64,000 nt of DNA, taken from contig NZ_SDWJ01000001.1 of assembly GCF_009769755.1 (NCBI RefSeq), positions 930,001-994,000 of the forward strand. Reading direction: 5' to 3'. The notes beneath the pieces were generated by a model that had not been told where the DNA came from, searched no databases, and was given only the letters and a program-made list of their open reading frames with translations. The translations under genes were made by a program, and so were the position numbers. How positions within the stretch are numbered: position 1 is the first letter of the stretch; the number at the start of each line of letters is the position of its first letter. This stretch comes from Sphingorhabdus profundilacus (GTDB taxonomy: Bacteria; Pseudomonadota; Alphaproteobacteria; Sphingomonadales; Sphingomonadaceae). Positions 27,552 to 50,298 of this stretch are shown here, in pieces.

Positions 27552-27982
27552 AATTTAGCTCCATGCTCGTTAGCCCTCTCCCCTTGCGGGAGAGGGTTGG
27601 GTGTGGGGGCGCCGCACGTCTGTGCGGTATTATTTCGAGGCGCAGCGATAATTGCTTCTGCCACGCCTTCCATATTGTTCAAGATGTCGCCATTCCAGAA
27701 ACGCAGAATGCAGAAGCCTTGACCCATTAGCCAAACATCGCGTCTGACATCGGCTTCACTTGCTACATGCTGACTGCCATCCGCTTCAACAATCAACCGA
27801 TACTCAAAGCAGACAAAATCGACTATATAGCGATCATCAATTACCTGTTGTCGACGCCATCGCAACCCGTTCAGCCGCTTATCACGCAGGATATACCAAA
27901 GCTTCCGTTCGGCATCTGTGGGATTAGCGCGCATATATCTCGCACGCTTTTTCAATAGCTCATGACGGGATTGAACTTGCAC
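27548..27982 (-). CDS. DUF559 (PD-(D/E)XK-like) nuclease-domain protein between inverted hairpin repeats
   Basis: The frame is open from 28099 (TTG), but the first 38 codons largely translate a palindromic repeat (SPLAGEG); the GTG at 27982, just before the domain, is the more likely start and gives 144 residues. The DUF559 core is present: TDAERKLWYILRDKRL, RWRRQQ, YIVDFVCFE and IVEADGSQH, matching the spacing of a PD-(D/E)XK nuclease site. The C-terminus (NPLPQGER) again encodes the repeat. The gene lies inside the pdhC-lpdA operon and its stop overlaps the lpdA GTG. Family function is not established; mobility or DNA cleavage is inferred. Confidence 0.72.
   Translation of the reverse strand: MQVQSRHELLKKRARYMRANPTDAERKLWYILRDKRLNGLRWRRQQVIDDRYIVDFVCFEYRLIVEADGSQHVASEADVRRDVWLMGQGFCILRFWNGDILNNMEGVAEAIIAAPRNNTAQTCGAPTPNPLPQGERANEHGAKL
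27574..27596. repeat. hairpin repeat, left end of the DUF559 unit
   Basis: A perfect 9 bp stem (CCCTCTCCC pairing with GGGAGAGGG) around the loop CTTGC. It is the exact inverse complement of the element at 28050-28072. Next to it, on the inner side, is a GGGTGTGGGG stretch that also occurs on the inner side of the right element. It lies within the 3' end of the DUF559 reading frame. Repeats of this type are scattered in many alphaproteobacterial genomes, from general knowledge. Confidence 0.85.
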
Positions 27983-28049
27983 CAAAGTCTTTTGCGTCGC
28001 TTGCCGCGACGCGACCCCACACCCTCCCACCGCTTCGCGGCGGGCCCCT

Positions 28050-28072
28050 CCCTCTCCCGCAAGGGGAGAGGG
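28050..28072. repeat. hairpin repeat, right end of the DUF559 unit
   Basis: The exact inverted copy of 27574-27596: a 9 bp stem with loop GCAAG. On its inner side it carries an extra small hairpin (CCGCTTCGCGG at 28031-28041) and then CCCCACACCC, matching the inner flank of the left element. It lies in the open frame upstream of the proposed DUF559 start. The two elements bound a 499 bp unit. Confidence 0.85.
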
Positions 28073-32354: not shown

Positions 32355-32499
32355 TTGTTCGCGCGAAGACGCGAAGACGCGAAGTCTCTATGATTGTCAC
32401 GGTGCATGCCGAATGCAATATCGACAACTATAGCCGATAACTCTTCCACATTCGGCATCAGTCAAAATCCTTCGTGTCTTCGCGTCTTCGAGCGAACAA
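32355..32499. repeat. imperfect inverted repeat between rnr and proS
   Basis: Two 30-base arms, 32355-32384 and 32470-32499, are inverted copies with two mismatches around an 85-base centre. The left arm contains a unit GCGAAGAC repeated with an 8-base period. The pair fills most of the 174 bp between proS and rnr, so the two same-strand genes are separated by a folded spacer. It looks like a sphingomonad REP/MITE-type intergenic repeat. No reading frame lies inside it. Confidence 0.8.
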
Positions 32500-42432: not shown

Positions 42433-43243
42433 CCGGTTCGATCACCGGCATGTCGCCATCGGAACGATTTATGGCATTGTTGATATGTGGTACCGGTTCG
42501 AAACAGAAAAAGTCGGTTTCGACAGGCGTGTAAACGACGGCGTGCGGCAAATCGGATGTGATCTCTAATGCAAGGCGTTCCCCTTCCCACTCAATCCGTG
42601 CAGTACCAAGCCATTGGCCATATAGATTATCAACATCTACTTCGCTTACTGCTTTGCCATGTTCAAACTGGTTTCCGGCACCGATCTGTTCACCTTCGAG
42701 CGGTAAATTGTCGGCCCCAGATGGGTAGAAATTTCCCGCCTCAAATCGCAACGATGCGTTCTTACTGTTAAAATATGGGTGAAGTCCAAACGCCAAAGGG
42801 ACTGCGGCACTATGCGTATTTTTGGCTATGAGACGAAGCTCAAGCCAATTTTGGCCAATGAATATATGCTGTTCGGCCTCAAACGGCCAAGGCCAATCAC
42901 GATCGCCAGGATGGGATAAGAATAATATCGCCGAGTCAGGATTATGGTGGTGTACGTGCCACGGACGTTCCCACCCGATCCCGTGAATAGCATGAGGTGC
43001 CGCCTGTACATGGGCCGGCAGCGCGTACCTTGTTCCATCCCAGCTAAACTGTGCATGGCCAATGCGGTTCGAATAGGGGACTAATGGAAAAGAGGCGGAT
43101 TCCAGAGGGTTTCGATCCGGCCCCGCGCATCGGAACAGATGTTGGCCACCGACACTCCACGAAGACAGCGACCCACCGGCGGACGGCCTTATGAAACATT
43201 CGCTGTCGCCGCTGGCAATCCGGATGACATTATCGACTAAAAT
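42386..43243 (-). CDS. aldose 1-epimerase homologue without a standard start codon
   Basis: The frame is open from just inside the pccA end to TGA at 42386 and reads as a full aldose 1-epimerase: SAGGSLSSWSVGG, LVPYSNRIG, HAIHGIGWERPW with the substrate His, and PLAFGLHPYF. Mutarotases interconvert sugar anomers. There is no ATG, GTG or TTG in frame before TTG at 42796, deep in the domain. ATT at 43243, 4 bases after the pccA stop, gives 285 residues and is the best candidate; ATC or CTG further in are others. Alternatively the gene lost its start and is decaying, but no stop or frameshift is seen. Confidence 0.65.
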   Translation of the reverse strand: MLVDNVIRIASGDSECFIRPSAGGSLSSWSVGGQHLFRCAGPDRNPLESASFPLVPYSNRIGHAQFSWDGTRYALPAHVQAAPHAIHGIGWERPWHVHHHNPDSAILFLSHPGDRDWPWPFEAEQHIFIGQNWLELRLIAKNTHSAAVPLAFGLHPYFNSKNASLRFEAGNFYPSGADNLPLEGEQIGAGNQFEHGKAVSEVDVDNLYGQWLGTARIEWEGERLALEITSDLPHAVVYTPVETDFFCFEPVPHINNAINRSDGDMPVIEPDERFVATIRFCGIPA

Positions 43244-43247
43244 TGCT

Positions 43248-45326
43248 TTATTCCATCTCTAGAATGACGGCATCGACTGCAAGGCTCTCCCCAGCGACGG
43301 CATTAATGCTCTTCACCACGCCTGATTTCTCTGCTCTCAAAATATTTTCCATCTTCATCGCTTCGACGATGGCCAGCGGCTGTCCCGCCTCCACCTTGTC
43401 ACCGACGGACACATGCACTGCAGTGATTAGGCCGGGCATGGGGCAAATGAGATATTTTGACAGATCGGGCGGGATCTTATCGACCATATGCGCGGCCAGA
43501 TGGGCAATATGTCCGGGTAGAACGCGGACCATGTGGCTTGCGCCGCGGGTGTTTAGTTTGAACCCTGTTCGGGTCTTTGCCACTTTGACAGCCAATTCCT
43601 CTTCGCCGACTTCGGCCTCGATCAGACGGTCACCGGGTACATATTCCATCGACAAGGCAAAGTCTTCGCCATCAACTAAAATAGCGCCATCATCCATCTC
43701 TATGTTGTGTACCGCATCGCCGATCTTGACCTGCCAGCGCGAAGGAGGCGGAAGCGTGCTGCCCAACTGGCCGTCAACCTGACGTGCGCGATCGGCTTCT
43801 GCTGTTGCGATAAATCCGGCAATGGCCGCCAACGATTTAATGAGGTCTGTGTCTGCCGGTGCCCCATGGAATCCATCGGGATATTCTTCTGCAATAAAGC
43901 CAGTCGTCAACTCGCCTGAACGAAAGCGGGGATGCTGCATGATCGCGCTGACGAAATCGATATTATGGCCCAGGCCTTCAATTTCGAACCGGTCGAGCGC
44001 TGCGATTTGCAAGTCGGCGGCTTCGTCGCGCGTTGCCCCCCAAGTGACCAGCTTGGCGATCATCGGATCGTAGAACATGCTGACTTCGCCGCCTTCGGCG
44101 ACGCCGTCGTCTACTCTCACTCCGCCTACACCTCTTAATCCGTTCGTGTCGAGCGAAGTCGAGACACCGTCCGTTCGCGCCCGATCTTGGGGCATCTCGA
44201 CTTCGCTCGATGTGAACGGTTTCTGGGGGATTGGTGGGCGATAGCGGGTCAAGCGGCCTGTCGAAGGGAGGAAACCGCGATAGGGGTCTTCGGCATAGAC
44301 GCGGTTCTCGATTGCCCAACCGTCGATTTTGATGTCGTCCTGCGTCATGCTGAGCTTTTCACCAGCGGCGACGCGGATCATCTGTTCGACCAGATCGATC
44401 CCGGTGATGCATTCGGTGACAGGGTGTTCGACCTGCAAGCGGGTGTTCATTTCGAGGAAGTAGAAACTTTCACCGCTGGGGTCGGCGCCCGACACGATGA
44501 GTTCGACGGTGCCTGCGGAGTAATAGCCAACCGCACGCGAAAGCGCCACGCATTGTTCGCCCATCGCTTTCCGCATCTTTGGCGTAACGAAAGGCGAAGG
44601 TGCTTCCTCCACCACCTTTTGGTGCCGTCGCTGGATCGAACATTCACGTTCGTTCAGATAAAGGATATTGCCATGCTGGTCGCCCAGTATTTGGATTTCG
44701 ATATGGCGCGGATTGAGGATGAACTTCTCGATAAACACGCGGTCGTCGCCGAACGAATTCAGGCCTTCCCGTTTCGTGGCTTCAAACCCTTCGCGCACGT
44801 CCTGTTCATTATAGGCAAGCCGCATTCCCTTGCCGCCGCCGCCAGCGCTGGCCTTCATCATCACGGGATAGCCGATTTCCGCCGAAATCCGCACCGCATG
44901 TTCGGTATCGTCAATCTCGCCGACAAAGCCGGGGACGACATTGACGCCCGCCGCCAGCGCGAGTTTCTTGGACTCGATCTTGTCGCCCATTGCGGCAATC
45001 GCGTTCACAGGCGGGCCGATGAAGGCAATGCCTTCGGCAGCGAGCGCCTCGGCAAAGCTGGTGCGTTCGGACAGAAAACCATAGCCCGGATGCACCGCCT
45101 CCGCGCCAGTTTGCTTGCACGCCGCGATGATCTTGTCGGCGAGCAGATAGGACTGCGCCGCAGGCGAAGGCCCGATATGCACCGCTTCGTCGGCCATCTG
45201 CACAAAGGGCGCACGCGCATCGGCATCGGAATAGACCGCAACGGTCGCGATCCCCATGCGCCGCGCGGTCTTGATGATCCGGCAAGCAATTTCGCCACGG
45301 TTTGCGATCAGGATTTTTTTGAACAT
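43248..45326 (-). CDS. pccA: propionyl-CoA carboxylase alpha (biotin carboxylase) subunit
   Basis: Carboxylates biotin for the conversion of propionyl-CoA to methylmalonyl-CoA. The 692-residue product has a biotin carboxylase domain (IANRGEIACRI at the start, GGGGKGMR in the ATP lid, EMNTRLQVEHPVTE), a linker and a C-terminal biotinyl domain with Lys658 in EAMKMEN. The start at 45326 has AAGGA before it; it shares one base with the stop of a small upstream gene. Residues about 370-396 are encoded by a palindromic repeat (44140-44219) inserted in frame just after the RYRPP motif, making the protein longer than usual. Confidence 0.94.
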   Translation of the reverse strand: MFKKILIANRGEIACRIIKTARRMGIATVAVYSDADARAPFVQMADEAVHIGPSPAAQSYLLADKIIAACKQTGAEAVHPGYGFLSERTSFAEALAAEGIAFIGPPVNAIAAMGDKIESKKLALAAGVNVVPGFVGEIDDTEHAVRISAEIGYPVMMKASAGGGGKGMRLAYNEQDVREGFEATKREGLNSFGDDRVFIEKFILNPRHIEIQILGDQHGNILYLNERECSIQRRHQKVVEEAPSPFVTPKMRKAMGEQCVALSRAVGYYSAGTVELIVSGADPSGESFYFLEMNTRLQVEHPVTECITGIDLVEQMIRVAAGEKLSMTQDDIKIDGWAIENRVYAEDPYRGFLPSTGRLTRYRPPIPQKPFTSSEVEMPQDRARTDGVSTSLDTNGLRGVGGVRVDDGVAEGGEVSMFYDPMIAKLVTWGATRDEAADLQIAALDRFEIEGLGHNIDFVSAIMQHPRFRSGELTTGFIAEEYPDGFHGAPADTDLIKSLAAIAGFIATAEADRARQVDGQLGSTLPPPSRWQVKIGDAVHNIEMDDGAILVDGEDFALSMEYVPGDRLIEAEVGEEELAVKVAKTRTGFKLNTRGASHMVRVLPGHIAHLAAHMVDKIPPDLSKYLICPMPGLITAVHVSVGDKVEAGQPLAIVEAMKMENILRAEKSGVVKSINAVAGESLAVDAVILEME
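44140..44219. repeat. palindromic repeat inserted in frame in pccA
   Basis: Two 25-base arms (44140-44164 and 44195-44219) are inverted copies with three mismatches around a 30-base centre. Read in the pccA frame it encodes PFTSSEVEMPQDRARTDG and then VSTSLDTNG. A related element at 47302-47382 in mcm encodes [18 protein letters not shown] in the same frame. The arms contain TCGAGCGAAGTCGAGA, a motif I associate with sphingomonad intergenic repeats. Confidence 0.9.
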
Positions 45327-45538
45327 TATTTTTTCCTTGCCCCGGTCCACCAAATCCCAAGCAGGACAATCAACAAGGCACCGGTACCTATGTAGTAAAA
45401 ATTCATTAGACGAGCTTGCCCGATAGCGCAGGCCTCAGGCGTGGCATTGGCGGGGCATCCTGTCACGCGGTAGTAGCCGTAGAGTGCGCAGACCGTCCAA
45501 AAAGCTAGCGTTAGTAGAAGTGAGGTTTTCTTACTCAT
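45326..45538 (-). CDS. small membrane protein between bioB and pccA
   Basis: A 70-residue protein not recognised as a family. It has two predicted membrane helices (about 6-23 and 46-63) joined by a loop with Cys28 and Cys37, which could form a disulfide if the loop is periplasmic. GGAG lies about 8 bases before its ATG. It starts 5 bp after the bioB stop, and its TAA shares one base with the pccA ATG, so it is probably translated within the bioB-pccA transcript. Function unknown. Confidence 0.65.
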   Translation of the reverse strand: MSKKTSLLLTLAFWTVCALYGYYRVTGCPANATPEACAIGQARLMNFYYIGTGALLIVLLGIWWTGARKK

Positions 45539-45543
45539 AACTT

Positions 45544-46551
45544 TTACTCCACCGCCTCCAAAGCCTTGCAAGCTCGCAGAGGCTCCTCTGCCTCCATCGG
45601 CACCAGCCCTAGCTTCGTCAGCATCGCCGCGTCCTTGTCGTCGCCTGCATTGGCTGCGGTGAGCAGTTTGTCGCCGGTGAATATGCTGTTCGCGCCCGCC
45701 ATGAAGCACAAGGCCTGCGTCGCCTCGGACATTGACTCGCGCCCCGCGCTCAGCCGCACCATGCTCATCGGCATGGTGATACGCGCCACGGCAATCGTGC
45801 GGACGAATTCGATATCGTCGATCTTCGCCAGTGGCGTATCGGCGAGCATATCGCCCAGCACGGTGCCCTTCACCGGCACCAGCGCGTTGACGGGAACGCT
45901 TTCGGGGTGGGCCGGCAAGGTCGCCAGCGTGTGGATGAAGCCCACCCTGTCGGCGCGCGTTTCGCCCATGCCGACGATGCCACCGCTGCACACGTTGATG
46001 CCAGCACGGCGAACTTCGGCCAGCGTGTCGAGTCTGTCCTCCATCGTCCGCGTGGTGATGATCTCGTTATAGCGTTCGGGCGAGGTGTCGATATTGTGGT
46101 TGTAATAATCGAGCCCCGCCTCGGCCAGTATATCGGCCTGTTTGGGCGACAACATGCCCAAGGTCATACAGGTTTCCATGCCCATCTGCCGCACGCCCTT
46201 CACGATCTCGACAATCGCGGGCATGTCGCGGTCCTTGGGGTTGCGCCATGCAGCCCCCATGCAGAAACGGCGTGAACCGTTGTCCGCCGCCTGCGCCGCC
46301 TTTTGCAGCACCGCCTGCACATCCATCAACTTGGTGGCCTCGACCCCGCTATCGGCCTTCACCGATTGGCTGCAATAGCCGCAATCTTCGGGACAGCCGC
46401 CAGTCTTGATGCTCAGCAAGGTGCAAAGCTGAATTTGTCCCACTGCATGATGCGCGCGATGGACAGTTGCGGCCTGATAGACCAGTTCATCAAACGGCAG
46501 GTCGAACAGTGTCGCGATTTCTTCGCGGGTCCAGTCGGTTCTAACAATCAT
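45544..46551 (-). CDS. bioB: biotin synthase
   Basis: The radical SAM enzyme that inserts sulfur into dethiobiotin. The 335-residue product has the CxxxCxxC motif at Cys53, Cys57 and Cys60 ([12 protein letters not shown]), YNHNIDT, and a cluster region with [10 protein letters not shown]. The frame is open to 46647 into a repeat; ATG at 46551 gives the usual length. No other bio gene is present. Its place before pccA suggests that cofactor supply is tied to expression of the biotin-dependent carboxylase. Confidence 0.95.
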
Positions 46552-46564
46552 AGATAAATCTCTT

Positions 46565-46658
46565 CTCTGCGGTCTCTGCGTGATCTCTGCGCCTCTGCCC
46601 GAAACCTGCAACGTTTTTTGGTTCGCGCAGAGGCGCAGAGGAAGCAAAGACCGCAGAG
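46565..46658. repeat. imperfect inverted repeat between mcm and bioB
   Basis: Arms at about 46565-46598 and 46628-46658 are inverted copies (CTCTGCGGTCT ... CTCTGCGCCTCTG) with a few mismatches and a 3-base length difference, around a centre with a T-rich stretch. The element fills nearly all of the 123 bp between the mcm stop and the bioB start. It is a different sequence family from the other repeats in the cluster. Confidence 0.8.
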
Positions 46659-46674
46659 AGTTTTATTGTTTGGG

Positions 46675-48888
46675 TCAAGCAGCTTCTCCCAAAGGCGGCA
46701 TATTGTGGCCAAGCAGACGCAATATGTCGCCTGCACATTCGACGATGTTGCTGCCCGGTCCGTAAATACCGACGACACCTGCGTCGCGCAGAAATTCATA
46801 ATCCTGCGGCGGGATAACGCCGCCGGCGAAGACTTTGATGTCAGGGCGGCCCGCTTCGCGCAGGAGGTGGATGAGTTTGGGGATATTTGTTTTATGACCC
46901 GCAGCGAGCGATGATGCGCCGATTGCGTCGACGTCTTTTTCAAGAGCTAACGCAAGCGTTTCCTCCGGCGTTTGGAACAACGGTCCGCTAATGGCGTCGA
47001 AGCCCATGTCACTGAAAGCGCTTGCGACCACATTAGCACCGCGATCATGCCCGTCTTGGCCCATTTTGGCGATGAGGACGCGGGGTTTGTGGCCGAGGCG
47101 GCGGCCAACGGCGTCGACACCTTCGACCACCAAAGCCCAAGCCGCGTCAAATTCATGCGCGCTGCCGTAGATGCCTTTTACAGGAACGGGGGTGGTGGCA
47201 TAGCGACCGAAGACGGTCTCCATCGCGTCCGAAATTTCACCTAATGTTGCACGAGCGCGGGCTGCGTCGATCGCTCTGGCTAACAAATTGTCTTCAAAAT
47301 TCCGTTCGCCTCGAGCAACGCCGAGAGGCCCATCGGTTCGCGCGCTACTTCCCGGTGTCTCGACTTCGCTCGACTCGAACGGGGAGTGGCGGGCGGCCTC
47401 GGTCAGGGCAGTAAGGGCCCGCTGACAGACCGCTTCGTCACGCGCTGCACGAGTTTTGGCCAATCGCGCAATCTGCCCCTGTCGAACTGCATCATTATCG
47501 ATGTCGAGCGTATCGAGCTGTTCCTCGGTGCCGAGCCGGTATTTGTTGACCCCGACAATGACGTCCTCGCCCTTGTCCACCCGTGCTTGCCGCGCAGCAG
47601 CGGCTTCTTCGATCAATCGCTTGGGCATGCCGGACGCGACCGCCTTGGTCATGCCGCCCAGTTCATCGACCTCGCCGATAATTTTCCAAGCCTGATCGAC
47701 CAGTTCCGCAGTCAATGCTTCGACATAAAAACTGCCGCCGAGGGGATCGACGACCTTGGTGATCCCGGTTTCCTCGGTCAATATGATCTGGGTATTGCGC
47801 GCGATCCGCGCCGAAAATTCAGTGGGCAATGCTATGGCTTCGTCCAGCGCATTGGTGTGCAACGACTGGGTTCCACCCAAGGTCGCGGCCATCGCCTCGA
47901 TCGTGGTACGGACGACATTATTATAGGGGTCTTGCTCCTGCAACGACACGCCCGACGTCTGGCAATGGGTCCGCAGCATCTTGGAGCGTTCGTCCTTTGC
48001 GCCGAGACCATCCATCACACGGTGCCACAATGTCCGCGCGGCACGTAGCTTGGACACTTCCATGAAAAAGTTCATGCCGATGCCGAAGAAAAACGACAGC
48101 CTGCCGGCAAAGGCATCGATGTCCAAGCCGCTTGCCATGGCACGCTGCACATATTCCTTGCCGTCGGCGATGGTGAAGGCCAGTTCCTGCACCGCCGTCG
48201 CGCCGGCTTCATGCATATGATAGCCGGAAATCGAAATGCTGTTGAACTTGGGCATATGCGCGCTGGTGTAGGCGATGATGTCCGACACAATCCGCATCGA
48301 AGGTTCGGGCGGATAGATGTAGGTGTTGCGGACCATGAACTCTTTCAGAATATCATTCTGGATAGTCCCGTCCAGTTGCGCTTGTGAAACGCCCTGTTCT
48401 TCACCGGCTACGATAAAGAAGGCGAGGATGGGAATGACCGCGCCGTTCATCGTCATGCTGACCGACATCTGGTCCAACGGAATACCGTCAAACAGGATTT
48501 TCATATCCTCGACGGAGTCTATCGCGACGCCTGCCTTGCCGACATCGCCGACAACGCGGGGATGGTCGCTGTCATAACCACGGTGCGTTGCAAGATCGAA
48601 GGCTACCGAAAGACCCTTCTGCCCCGCTGCCAGATTGCGGCGATAAAAAGCGTTGGATTCTTCGGCGGTAGAAAAGCCTGCATATTGACGAATGGTCCAC
48701 GGTCGACCCGCATACATTGACGCCCGCACGCCCCGCGTAAATGGGGCAAAACCGGGAAGACCCGGATCGCCTGCGTCATCGGACGTATACAGCGGCTTTA
48801 CGGCTATACCCTCTGGCGTGTGCCAGGTCAGGTCCTTACCCTTGACCTCTTTATCCGCTGCCTTTTTCCAATCGTCGTAACTTGTCAT
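46675..48888 (-). CDS. scpA: methylmalonyl-CoA mutase (single-chain, B12-dependent)
   Basis: Converts methylmalonyl-CoA to succinyl-CoA with adenosylcobalamin. The 737-residue protein has the TIM-barrel catalytic domain ([50 protein letters not shown], partly quoted here) and a C-terminal B12 domain with the DxHxxG motif around His614 ([10 protein letters not shown]). Residues about 503-529, in the linker between the two domains, are encoded by an in-frame palindromic repeat. Upstream: enoyl-CoA hydratase; downstream: bioB. No MeaB or B12 adenosyltransferase gene is in the window. Confidence 0.95.
47302..47382. repeat. palindromic repeat inserted in frame in mcm
   Basis: Arms 47302-47326 and 47358-47382 are 25-base inverted copies, the left one more decayed, around a 31-base centre that shares a GTTCGCGC core with the pccA element. 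In the mcm frame it encodes [19 protein letters not shown]. It sits between the catalytic barrel and the B12 domain, a place where extra residues are likely tolerated. Confidence 0.88.
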
Positions 48889-48903
48889 TCGATCTTCCCA
48901 ATG

Positions 48904-48927
48904 CCCTCTCTCTTTCAGGGGAGAGGG
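48904..48927. repeat. small hairpin repeat between the hydratase gene and mcm
   Basis: CCCTCTC pairs with GAGAGGG (7 bp stem, 10-base loop) in the 41 bp between the two genes. It resembles the hairpins bounding the DUF559 unit but has a different loop. There is no T-run, so it is not a standard terminator. Confidence 0.6.
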
Positions 48928-48929
48928 GG

Positions 48930-49730
48930 TTATGCCCCCTTAAACTCCGCTTTCCGCTTCTGCAAAAATGCTATTCCACCTTCGCGGGCATCTGCGCTGG
49001 AACCTGCGATACGCTGCCCCTCGGCTTCGGCCTGCAATGTGTCGGCGAGACCATGTTCGAGCGCGGTCAATATGTTCTTTCGCATTGTGGCATAGGCCAG
49101 CGTCGGCCCCGTTGCGAGCCGTGTCGCGAGCGCCTTGGTTTCTTCGGCAAGCGCTTCGTCGGCCACGCATTTATAAATGAGGCCCCAATCTTCGGCCTGT
49201 TCGCCGAAAATCTTTTCCCCCAGCATCATCATCTGCGTGGCGCGTGCCTTGCCGACGAGACGCGGCAGCATCCAGGTGGAACCGCCATCTGGCACCAGAC
49301 CGATATTGACGAAAGCCTGCAGGAAATATCCGCTCTTGCCCGCCAACACGAAATCGCCAACCAGCCCGATGGAACAGCCGACGCCTGCAGCCGGTCCGTT
49401 CACCGCGGTAATCACCGGAATGTTGAGACGCAGCAACTTGACGATCATCGGATTATATTTCTCGGTCAGCGCGATATAGCTGCCCTGCCCGCCAGTGACC
49501 GGTCGGTCGCTGCGCGCGGCTAGGTCTGCGCCGGAACAAAAGGCGCGACCCGCGCCGGTGATGACCAGCACACGGGCGTCTTCCAAACGGTCCAGCGCAT
49601 CCGAAATTTCATCGGCCATAGGCAGCGAACAGGCGTTCAACCGCTCCGGTCGATTCAACATGATCGTGGCGATCTGATCCGCAATGTCCAGGCGGATAGT
49701 TTCGTAGGTCATTTTGGTACTCACTCCCAT
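48930..49730 (-). CDS. enoyl-CoA hydratase/isomerase family protein
   Basis: A 266-residue crotonase-fold protein. The oxyanion-hole stretches are CSGADLAA and [17 protein letters not shown], followed by [15 protein letters not shown], a pattern seen in PaaG-like isomerases and hydratases of fatty acid or aromatic degradation. The specific substrate is unknown; its place among the propionate genes suggests a route that yields propionyl-CoA. The start at 49730 was chosen because AAGGA lies 5 bases before it; ATG at 49712 is another option. Confidence 0.87.
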
Positions 49731-49740
49731 ATTTTTCCTT

Positions 49741-49829
49741 GTCACCCTGAACTTGTTTCAGGGTCCATTTCGCCTCTACCCCCTTGGGGCTCGGTTGCAC
49801 GATGGACCCTGAAACAAGTTCAGGGTGAC
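49741..49829. repeat. perfect 28 bp inverted repeat between mce and the hydratase gene
   Basis: Arms 49741-49768 and 49802-49829 are perfect inverted copies of 28 bases around a 33-base centre. Each arm is itself a small hairpin (CCCTGAA and TTCAGGG). It fills most of the 118 bp between the two genes. Repeats with CACCCTGAACTTGTTTCAGG are, from general knowledge, common in sphingomonad and erythrobacter genomes. Confidence 0.92.
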
Positions 49830-49848
49830 GGCGTGATGCTTTGTTGGG

Positions 49849-50298
49849 TTAGTGCCCTCCCGGTACAGCCGGCACCTCCATAATCTCGGTCAGCACACCG
49901 CCCATGTCCTTGGGGTGCACGAAGAAAATGAGCGTCCCGTGCGCGCCAATCCTCGGTTCGCCCAATACGCGCTTGTCTAAGCTTTCGAACTCGGCCTTGG
50001 CGACGTGGATATCGGGGACTTCGTAGCAGACATGATGCTGCCCGCCCGCCGGGTTCTTCTCAAGGAACGCCGCGATGGAGGCATTGCCCGGCAGCGGCTC
50101 GACCAGCTCGATCTGCGTGCCGTTCAATGCGCCGTCCGCGCCGGGCGTGTCGACAAAGCAGACCTTCACCCCCTGATCGGGCAGGTCGAACGGCGCATGA
50201 ATTTTCGTCGCACCCATCACATCGCGGTAAAAGACGATGCTATCTGCGATAGAGGGCGTTGCGACGCCGATATGGTTGAGACGGCCTAGTTTCATCAT
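49849..50298 (-). CDS. mce: methylmalonyl-CoA epimerase
   Basis: Interconverts the (S) and (R) forms of methylmalonyl-CoA between the carboxylase and the mutase. The 149-residue VOC-fold protein starts with LGRLNHIGVATPSI (metal-binding His), has QIELVEPLP and the central GGQHHVCYEVPD, and ends with the last metal ligand in LTEIMEV. The ATG at 50298 has AAGGA 5 bases before it, inside the end of the coiled-coil gene. A truncated second copy of its first 29 codons lies at 50864-50949. Confidence 0.93.
   Translation of the reverse strand: MMKLGRLNHIGVATPSIADSIVFYRDVMGATKIHAPFDLPDQGVKVCFVDTPGADGALNGTQIELVEPLPGNASIAAFLEKNPAGGQHHVCYEVPDIHVAKAEFESLDKRVLGEPRIGAHGTLIFFVHPKDMGGVLTEIMEVPAVPGGH

Follow-up and report, generated by a model that had tools for sequence, protein, structure and literature searches.

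Why should two enzymes of one pathway carry the same unrelated peptide? In a 64,000-nt stretch of Sphingorhabdus profundilacus DNA (the window, i.e., the whole stretch that was analysed), methylmalonyl-CoA mutase (mcm) and the alpha subunit of propionyl-CoA carboxylase (pccA) share about 18 residues, for which a preliminary description had proposed either selection for a harmless reading or a shared role such as a docking tag. The mcm gene is an uninterrupted ORF of 737 aa on the minus strand (46675..48888), which matched NCBIfam NF006944 with 1180 bits over residues 9-728 and has the solved relatives 8gju, 2xij and 1req. The pccA ORF, also on the minus strand (43248..45353), opens at TTG; from the sequence, its start is likely the M of MFKKIL at residue 10, from which the best solved match, the propionyl-CoA carboxylase alpha subunit 3n6r, aligns. 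Its product matched biotin-carboxylase and biotin-carrier domains, and a structure search with the PccA model again returned propionyl-CoA carboxylase and nothing further.

The palindrome reported in frame within mcm, between the catalytic and B12 domains, is indeed present as an 81-nt double hairpin at 47302..47382, composed of two inverted 29-nt arms and a 23-nt loop. In coding sense (minus strand), the 5' arm (47354..47382) is read in frame b and differs at one position from the consensus arm, CCGTTCGTGTCGAGCGNAGTCGAGACACC, while the 3' arm (47302..47330) is diverged, with 7 mismatches, and reads PLGVARGER, i.e., the CLDFARHER frame. Repeat comparison identified a sister element of 80 nt with a 22-nt loop in pccA (44140..44219), across which the ORF reads PFTSSEVEMPQDRARTDG (codons 44166..44219, minus strand) followed by VSTSLDTNG. 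The corresponding 18 residues of mcm are encoded at 47329..47382 (minus strand), and 13 of 18 are identical in the two proteins, so the shared peptide is real and spans the first arm and the loop. The claim that both copies use the same frame and orientation holds for these two parts. It fails for the second arm, which reads GVSTSLDTNG in pccA and is in a different frame in mcm because the elements are 80 and 81 nt long; orientation says little for a near-palindrome.

The two peptides are alike because the DNA is alike. The core TCTCGACTTCGCTCGA occurs three times in the window (up to 2 mismatches) versus 0.06 expected, a number reached by none of 100 shuffles. As DNA, the pccA element folds far better than its shuffled versions (z -6.04; 0/200 as good), whereas 10 of 200 shuffles fold as well as the mcm element (z -1.83), so the mcm hairpin is decayed. 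No Rfam family matched positions 43000-50000 at gathering score.

Both elements belong to a dispersed repeat family. In the same genome (G000), the core had 22 matches with at most 1 mismatch and the reversed control none. Two scans, merged by hand, gave 19 element sites: five inside genes (mcm, pccA, carA, uvrA and trmD), one at the N terminus of sufS and 13 outside any recognised gene. Within the genus, the arm was detected in 20 of 45 genomes (up to 3 mismatches); within the family, it was detected in 72 of 298 sampled genomes and 37 of 96 genera (up to 1 mismatch; control 0). By itself, the consensus arm has only a weak predicted fold (energy model, z 0.12). The stem does covary: both variable pairs were Watson-Crick in 112 of the 137 distinct arms (360 arms in total), and the best of 2000 shuffles, which take no account of kinship among these related copies, reached 53. 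Pairs included TG/CA, CC/GG, CA/TG, TC/GA, CT/AG, GT/AC and more. The genus and family loci contained 167 inward-facing arm pairs with loops of 1-37 nt. Loop lengths clustered at 7-10, 14-16 and 22 nt, in steps of about 7, and the flanks of these elements favoured C at positions -7 to -5 and T at -1.

REPINs consist of two inverted REPs with a short loop between them and occur with RAYT transposases. The present element has the same anatomy, two inverted hairpin units with a short spacer, and its unit is a covarying hairpin; it differs from REPINs with a cognate RAYT (Y1) transposase flanked by REP in that no such enzyme was found in the same genome or beside any arm examined. Y1_Tnp was absent from G000 and from 9 of 14 chosen copy-rich genomes, including G110 and G289 (any Y1 in 5/14); any Y1 transposase was detected in 4 of the 45 genus genomes, and ten Y1 loci examined contained no arm of this family. 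The target-site duplication that characterises DDE-type MITEs was likewise not observed, as 156 of the 167 inward pairs had no direct repeat of at least 2 nt at their flanks. The family is thus an orphan REPIN-like family, with REPIN anatomy but without the expected Y1 transposase. One locus (L188, G018:C49) has a 274-codon ORF (stop to stop) flanked by two element pairs that lie about 0.9 kb from each other; no transposase was recognised there by eye.

Sequence alignment with the human mutase chains 8gju and 2xij places the mcm insert between their positions 532 and 535, where a linker joins the catalytic part to the B12 part; the pccA insert, also by sequence, maps to a loop that follows the RYRPP motif. 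AlphaFold models assigned pLDDT below 50 to residues 505-528 of mcm, flanked by helices 485-500 and 535-544 (in a model of only moderate quality, mean pLDDT 72), and to residues 378-404 of pccA. Both inserts are therefore predicted to be disordered.

Among the genus loci, which were the best matches and come from part of the 45 genomes, the mcm linker was short and lacked any such insert in 22 of 30 cases and was filled in 8. The pccA linker had no such insert in 26 of 30 and was filled in 4; the carA linker was filled in 8 of 29 readable cases. In wider sphingomonad rows (L053-L083 and L086; L068 is assigned only to Alphaproteobacteria), a palindrome was present in 3/32 rows for mcm and 3/28 for pccA, one of these, L058, being apparently from the same organism as G025; 41 other mcm rows had short linkers. 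By eye, the fillers fall into at least four hairpin families, designated S (the present family), V (VRPEPVEG), P1 and P2; in G028, the sequence that fills carA forms a partial fold only. Linkers are often filled by a family that is abundant in the genome concerned: S has 24 matches in G000, P1 fills linkers in G020, G026, G028 and G034 (12, 20, 7 and 7 matches), and V does so in G011 and G035 (13 and 20 matches). An exception is G036, which is V-rich, yet its carA holds a GC-rich hairpin. All filled linkers kept the frame without stops (mcm 8/8, pccA 4/4, carA 8/8) in loci picked by protein match, which favours intact copies.

Several further arrangements were observed. G028 has two mcm genes (L027 and G028:C2:253866), only one of which carries a palindrome insert. 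In the mcm linkers of G011 and G035 (L029 and L048), the V family is present as two and three tandem in-frame copies, adding up to about 80 residues. In the window itself, GC-rich arms (CCCTCTCCCCTTGCGGGAGAGGG) lie 443 nt apart at 27574-28072 and resemble the GC-rich hairpins seen as carA fillers in relatives. An inverted repeat with 30-nt arms, 93% complementary and 85 nt apart, is located between two ORFs at 32355-32499.

We surveyed reading frames in 224 de-duplicated elements from 76 genus and 150 family loci, the latter comprising 30 returned loci and 120 of 121 stretches listed from a scan output that names only some of the places in each genome. Family models verified 22 in-gene insertions, confirming that this palindrome family is used in frame in coding DNA. 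Host genes were mcm, pccA (G000, G183 and G300), carA, uvrA, trmD, sufC, valS, ligA, ileS, mccB (G304 and G183), an E2 acyltransferase gene, RNase R (G196 and G146), coaBC, a radical-SAM methylthiotransferase-like gene, a nitrite/sulfite reductase gene, a Type ISP restriction gene (G024), and smrA and truB, both under the curated cut-off. The genes mccB and pccA were named from solved relatives. Assignment of the G304 and G183 genes to pccB was considered and rejected: they scored about 780-800 bits with AccD1/methylcrotonyl-CoA carboxylase beta versus 240-260 with the R. pomeroyi PCC beta subunit.

Five of these genes, namely trmD, sufC, smrA, truB and the Type ISP gene, were supplied by the scan of the genus or its follow-up rather than by a filter on GC content by codon position. 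A strict version of this filter, which gave 14 hits, was replaced by a looser one that retained 33 ORFs. Eighteen of the 33 were HMM-scanned first, and four (L191, L194, L209 and L288 on the minus strand) were taken as orthologues of scanned genes. Among the last 11 scanned, ten had no Pfam match and L178 had a HAD domain only after the insert; these, and L357 (no Pfam match), were left out of the counts. For carA, uvrA and the E2 gene, second copies were not counted, nor was the first arm of mtaB, which is weak. Also left out were sufS and cysH, in which the insert precedes the domain and the start codon is uncertain. The second arm of uvrA was scored from the G024 orthologue because the arm in G000 has decayed.

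One reading prevailed in the verified genes. First arms (n = 20) read PFVSSEVETP in 14 cases and VRVERSRDT and RSCRAKSRH in 3 each; second arms (n = 21) read GVSTSLDTNG in 17, CLDFARHER in 3 and VSRLRSTRT in 1. Against a one-third null, p was 0.0009 for first and 1e-5 for second arms; with only open frames as the null, the values were 0.014 and 3.5e-4. Without the Type ISP gene of G024 the counts were 13/19 and 16/20, and when the two mccB rows were also treated as one event they were 12/18 and 15/19 (p = 0.027 and 0.0008, open-frame null). ORFs over elements outside the verified loci used the frames nearly evenly (54/166 and 59/156). The preferred reading is polar, rich in Ser, Glu and Thr, and free of Cys and of Arg clusters. 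The earlier idea of selection for a harmless reading is supported by this bias, to the extent that hand-tallied counts of few events, pooled over related species, allow.

The bias might instead arise from the codon phase of the target site, with no selection on the peptide. We regard this as possible but doubtful. The C and T preferences in the flanks indicate that insertion, or the element ends, are non-random, in keeping with such a phase effect. However, in frame b the T directly before the element would be the third base of its codon, which in GC-rich genes is seldom T, and the second arm is biased as well, despite varying loop lengths.

Filled mcm and pccA linkers tend to be found together in the genus: counts for both, mcm only, pccA only and neither were 4/2/0/15 over 21 genomes (p = 0.0025, kinship ignored), and all four pccA-filled genomes with both loci visible also have a filled mcm. 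Without G028, in which the filled mcm and the viewed pccA are in different clusters, the counts were 4/1/0/15 (p = 0.001, kinship again ignored). This co-occurrence could reflect long loops that tolerate inserts, linkage between mcm and pccA or a common history and, less probably, a shared effect. The two genes might also have acquired the element in one event, or the copy in one gene might derive from that in the other, through local duplication or conversion, as their separation of only 3.2 kb, the ARTDG loop present in both and the co-occurrence would suggest. Given that the copies differ in length and are only 74% identical over 53 nt, we consider this event unlikely.

With regard to the choice of genes, four of the 22 events are in the propionate pathway (pccA in three genomes, mcm in one), the G304 and G183 genes being counted as mccB rather than pccB. 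Acyl-CoA carboxylase subunits account for 5 of the 22, and the 13 events outside the genus include two in pccA and two in mccB, genes that were not used as bait. We think it improbable that linkers of pccA, mcm, methylcrotonyl-CoA carboxylase beta and carA are recurrent drop zones for any resident palindrome family, with the concentration in carboxylases and mutase reflecting selection, e.g., for a disordered spacer that, whatever its sequence, tunes flux or assembly.

Selection on the peptide was assessed in carA, the sole locus measured, whose insertion is common to G000, G031 and G024. Over 38 codons (tails included) in these three species, dN/dS was about 0.86, 1.05 and 0.75 for the insert versus about 0.07, 0.05 and 0.05 for the rest of carA. 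The comparison of synonymous and non-synonymous change called for in the preliminary description thus shows, for this one locus, that the insert evolves near-neutrally. On inspection of the sequences, the carA arms look less changed than the spacer, which fits a history in which the hairpin, not the peptide, mattered.

Because the inserts are hairpins in coding DNA, they might be skipped in the message by splicing or ribosome hopping, so that the peptide would never be made; this is very improbable, as a skipped element would need neither a kept frame nor freedom from stops, both of which were seen in all mcm, pccA and carA inserts viewed, and the frame bias implies translation. Least probable of all is the docking tag, by which the peptide would connect the mutase and the carboxylase of the propionate pathway with one another or with a shared partner: its presence in both, the same family in pccA of G183 and G300, and the co-occurrence in the genus are in its favour, but the PFxSSEVE-type reading is also found in carA, uvrA, valS, ileS, coaBC, RNase R of G196 and other proteins, pccA of G300 uses another frame for its arm, most mcm and pccA linkers of relatives are without such an insert and others hold unrelated peptides, the carA insert is near-neutral, and the inserts are predicted to be disordered.

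We therefore favour, with a probability of roughly 0.85, a selfish, non-autonomous REPIN-like repeat that inserted into linkers of housekeeping enzymes, with the peptide as a tolerated disordered spacer rather than a docking tag. Inverted pairs of 29-nt REP hairpins would have spread patchily through the family, perhaps by ssDNA-type movement catalysed by some enzyme, and would now be orphaned in the present genome. Some would have landed in linkers of housekeeping enzymes, mcm and pccA among them. Insertions that destroyed the reading frame or disrupted a folded domain were presumably lost, whereas copies whose reading is polar and unstructured may persist where a linker tolerates them and drift as translated disordered spacers. 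Since the same linkers in relatives are empty or filled with unrelated sequences, the peptide common to both enzymes looks like genomic debris that is tolerated, and in mcm and pccA it may be as inert as the carA peptide appears.

One family occupies many host genes, and its sites in sister species are empty, filled or filled by something else, which provides a natural experiment on selfish DNA turning into protein. Two questions become testable: whether selection for harmlessness acts on the frame in which a repeat is translated, and which enzyme linkers can accommodate about 25-80 extra residues. The case also serves as a warning that a peptide common to two enzymes of a pathway need not be a functional motif.

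In-frame REPs in housekeeping genes, sphingomonads included, have already been published. The GTAG/CGTC-tagged REPs are described as short hairpins, mostly inverted dimers, that are usually intergenic and also occur in frame in genes (Di Nocera et al. 2013, PMC3733652). The text names uvrA, truB and tRNA synthetases among such genes and S. alaskensis and E. litoralis among the hosts, reports CGTC elements without a dedicated transposase, and notes two Xanthomonas recB genes with different REPs at about the same site (PMC3733652). A CGTC REP is defined there by a terminal tag, an 8-9 bp stem starting with AT, a 4-5 nt loop and a CCA tail. In contrast, CCGTTCGTGTCGAGCGNAGTCGAGACACC starts with CCGTTC, its stem is 7 bp long and contains a bulge of 2 nt, and it carries neither a GTAG/CGTC tag nor a CCA tail; judged by its consensus against that text description, the present family falls outside the GTAG and CGTC superfamilies. 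Elsewhere in the window, a perfect 28-bp inverted repeat at 49741-49829 (GTCACCCTGAACTTGTTTCAGGGTCCAT and its complement) resembles CGTC-type REP dimers; counting the outer base, one arm reads TGTC and the other CGTC.

Earlier still, Rickettsia palindromic elements of about 150 bp were found in the genes of unrelated proteins, where they are read in frame and seem to be compatible with the fold (Ogata et al. 2000, 2002, as cited in PMC10969869). By description rather than sequence, the present element is similar in being a palindrome inside ORFs that is read in frame, and differs in its length (about 80 nt) and its sphingomonad host. Enterobacterial small MITE-like repeats, with units of 103-168 bp, also carry open frames and occur in genes (PMC2759123), and the likeness is again one of description only. 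Unrelated families in the linkers of sister species, a frame-bias test and a dN/dS test were not found in the text of PMC3733652. Relative to these descriptions, our analysis adds the turnover of linkers, the frame bias, the neutrality test and a family without the tags that define GTAG/CGTC REPs as described.
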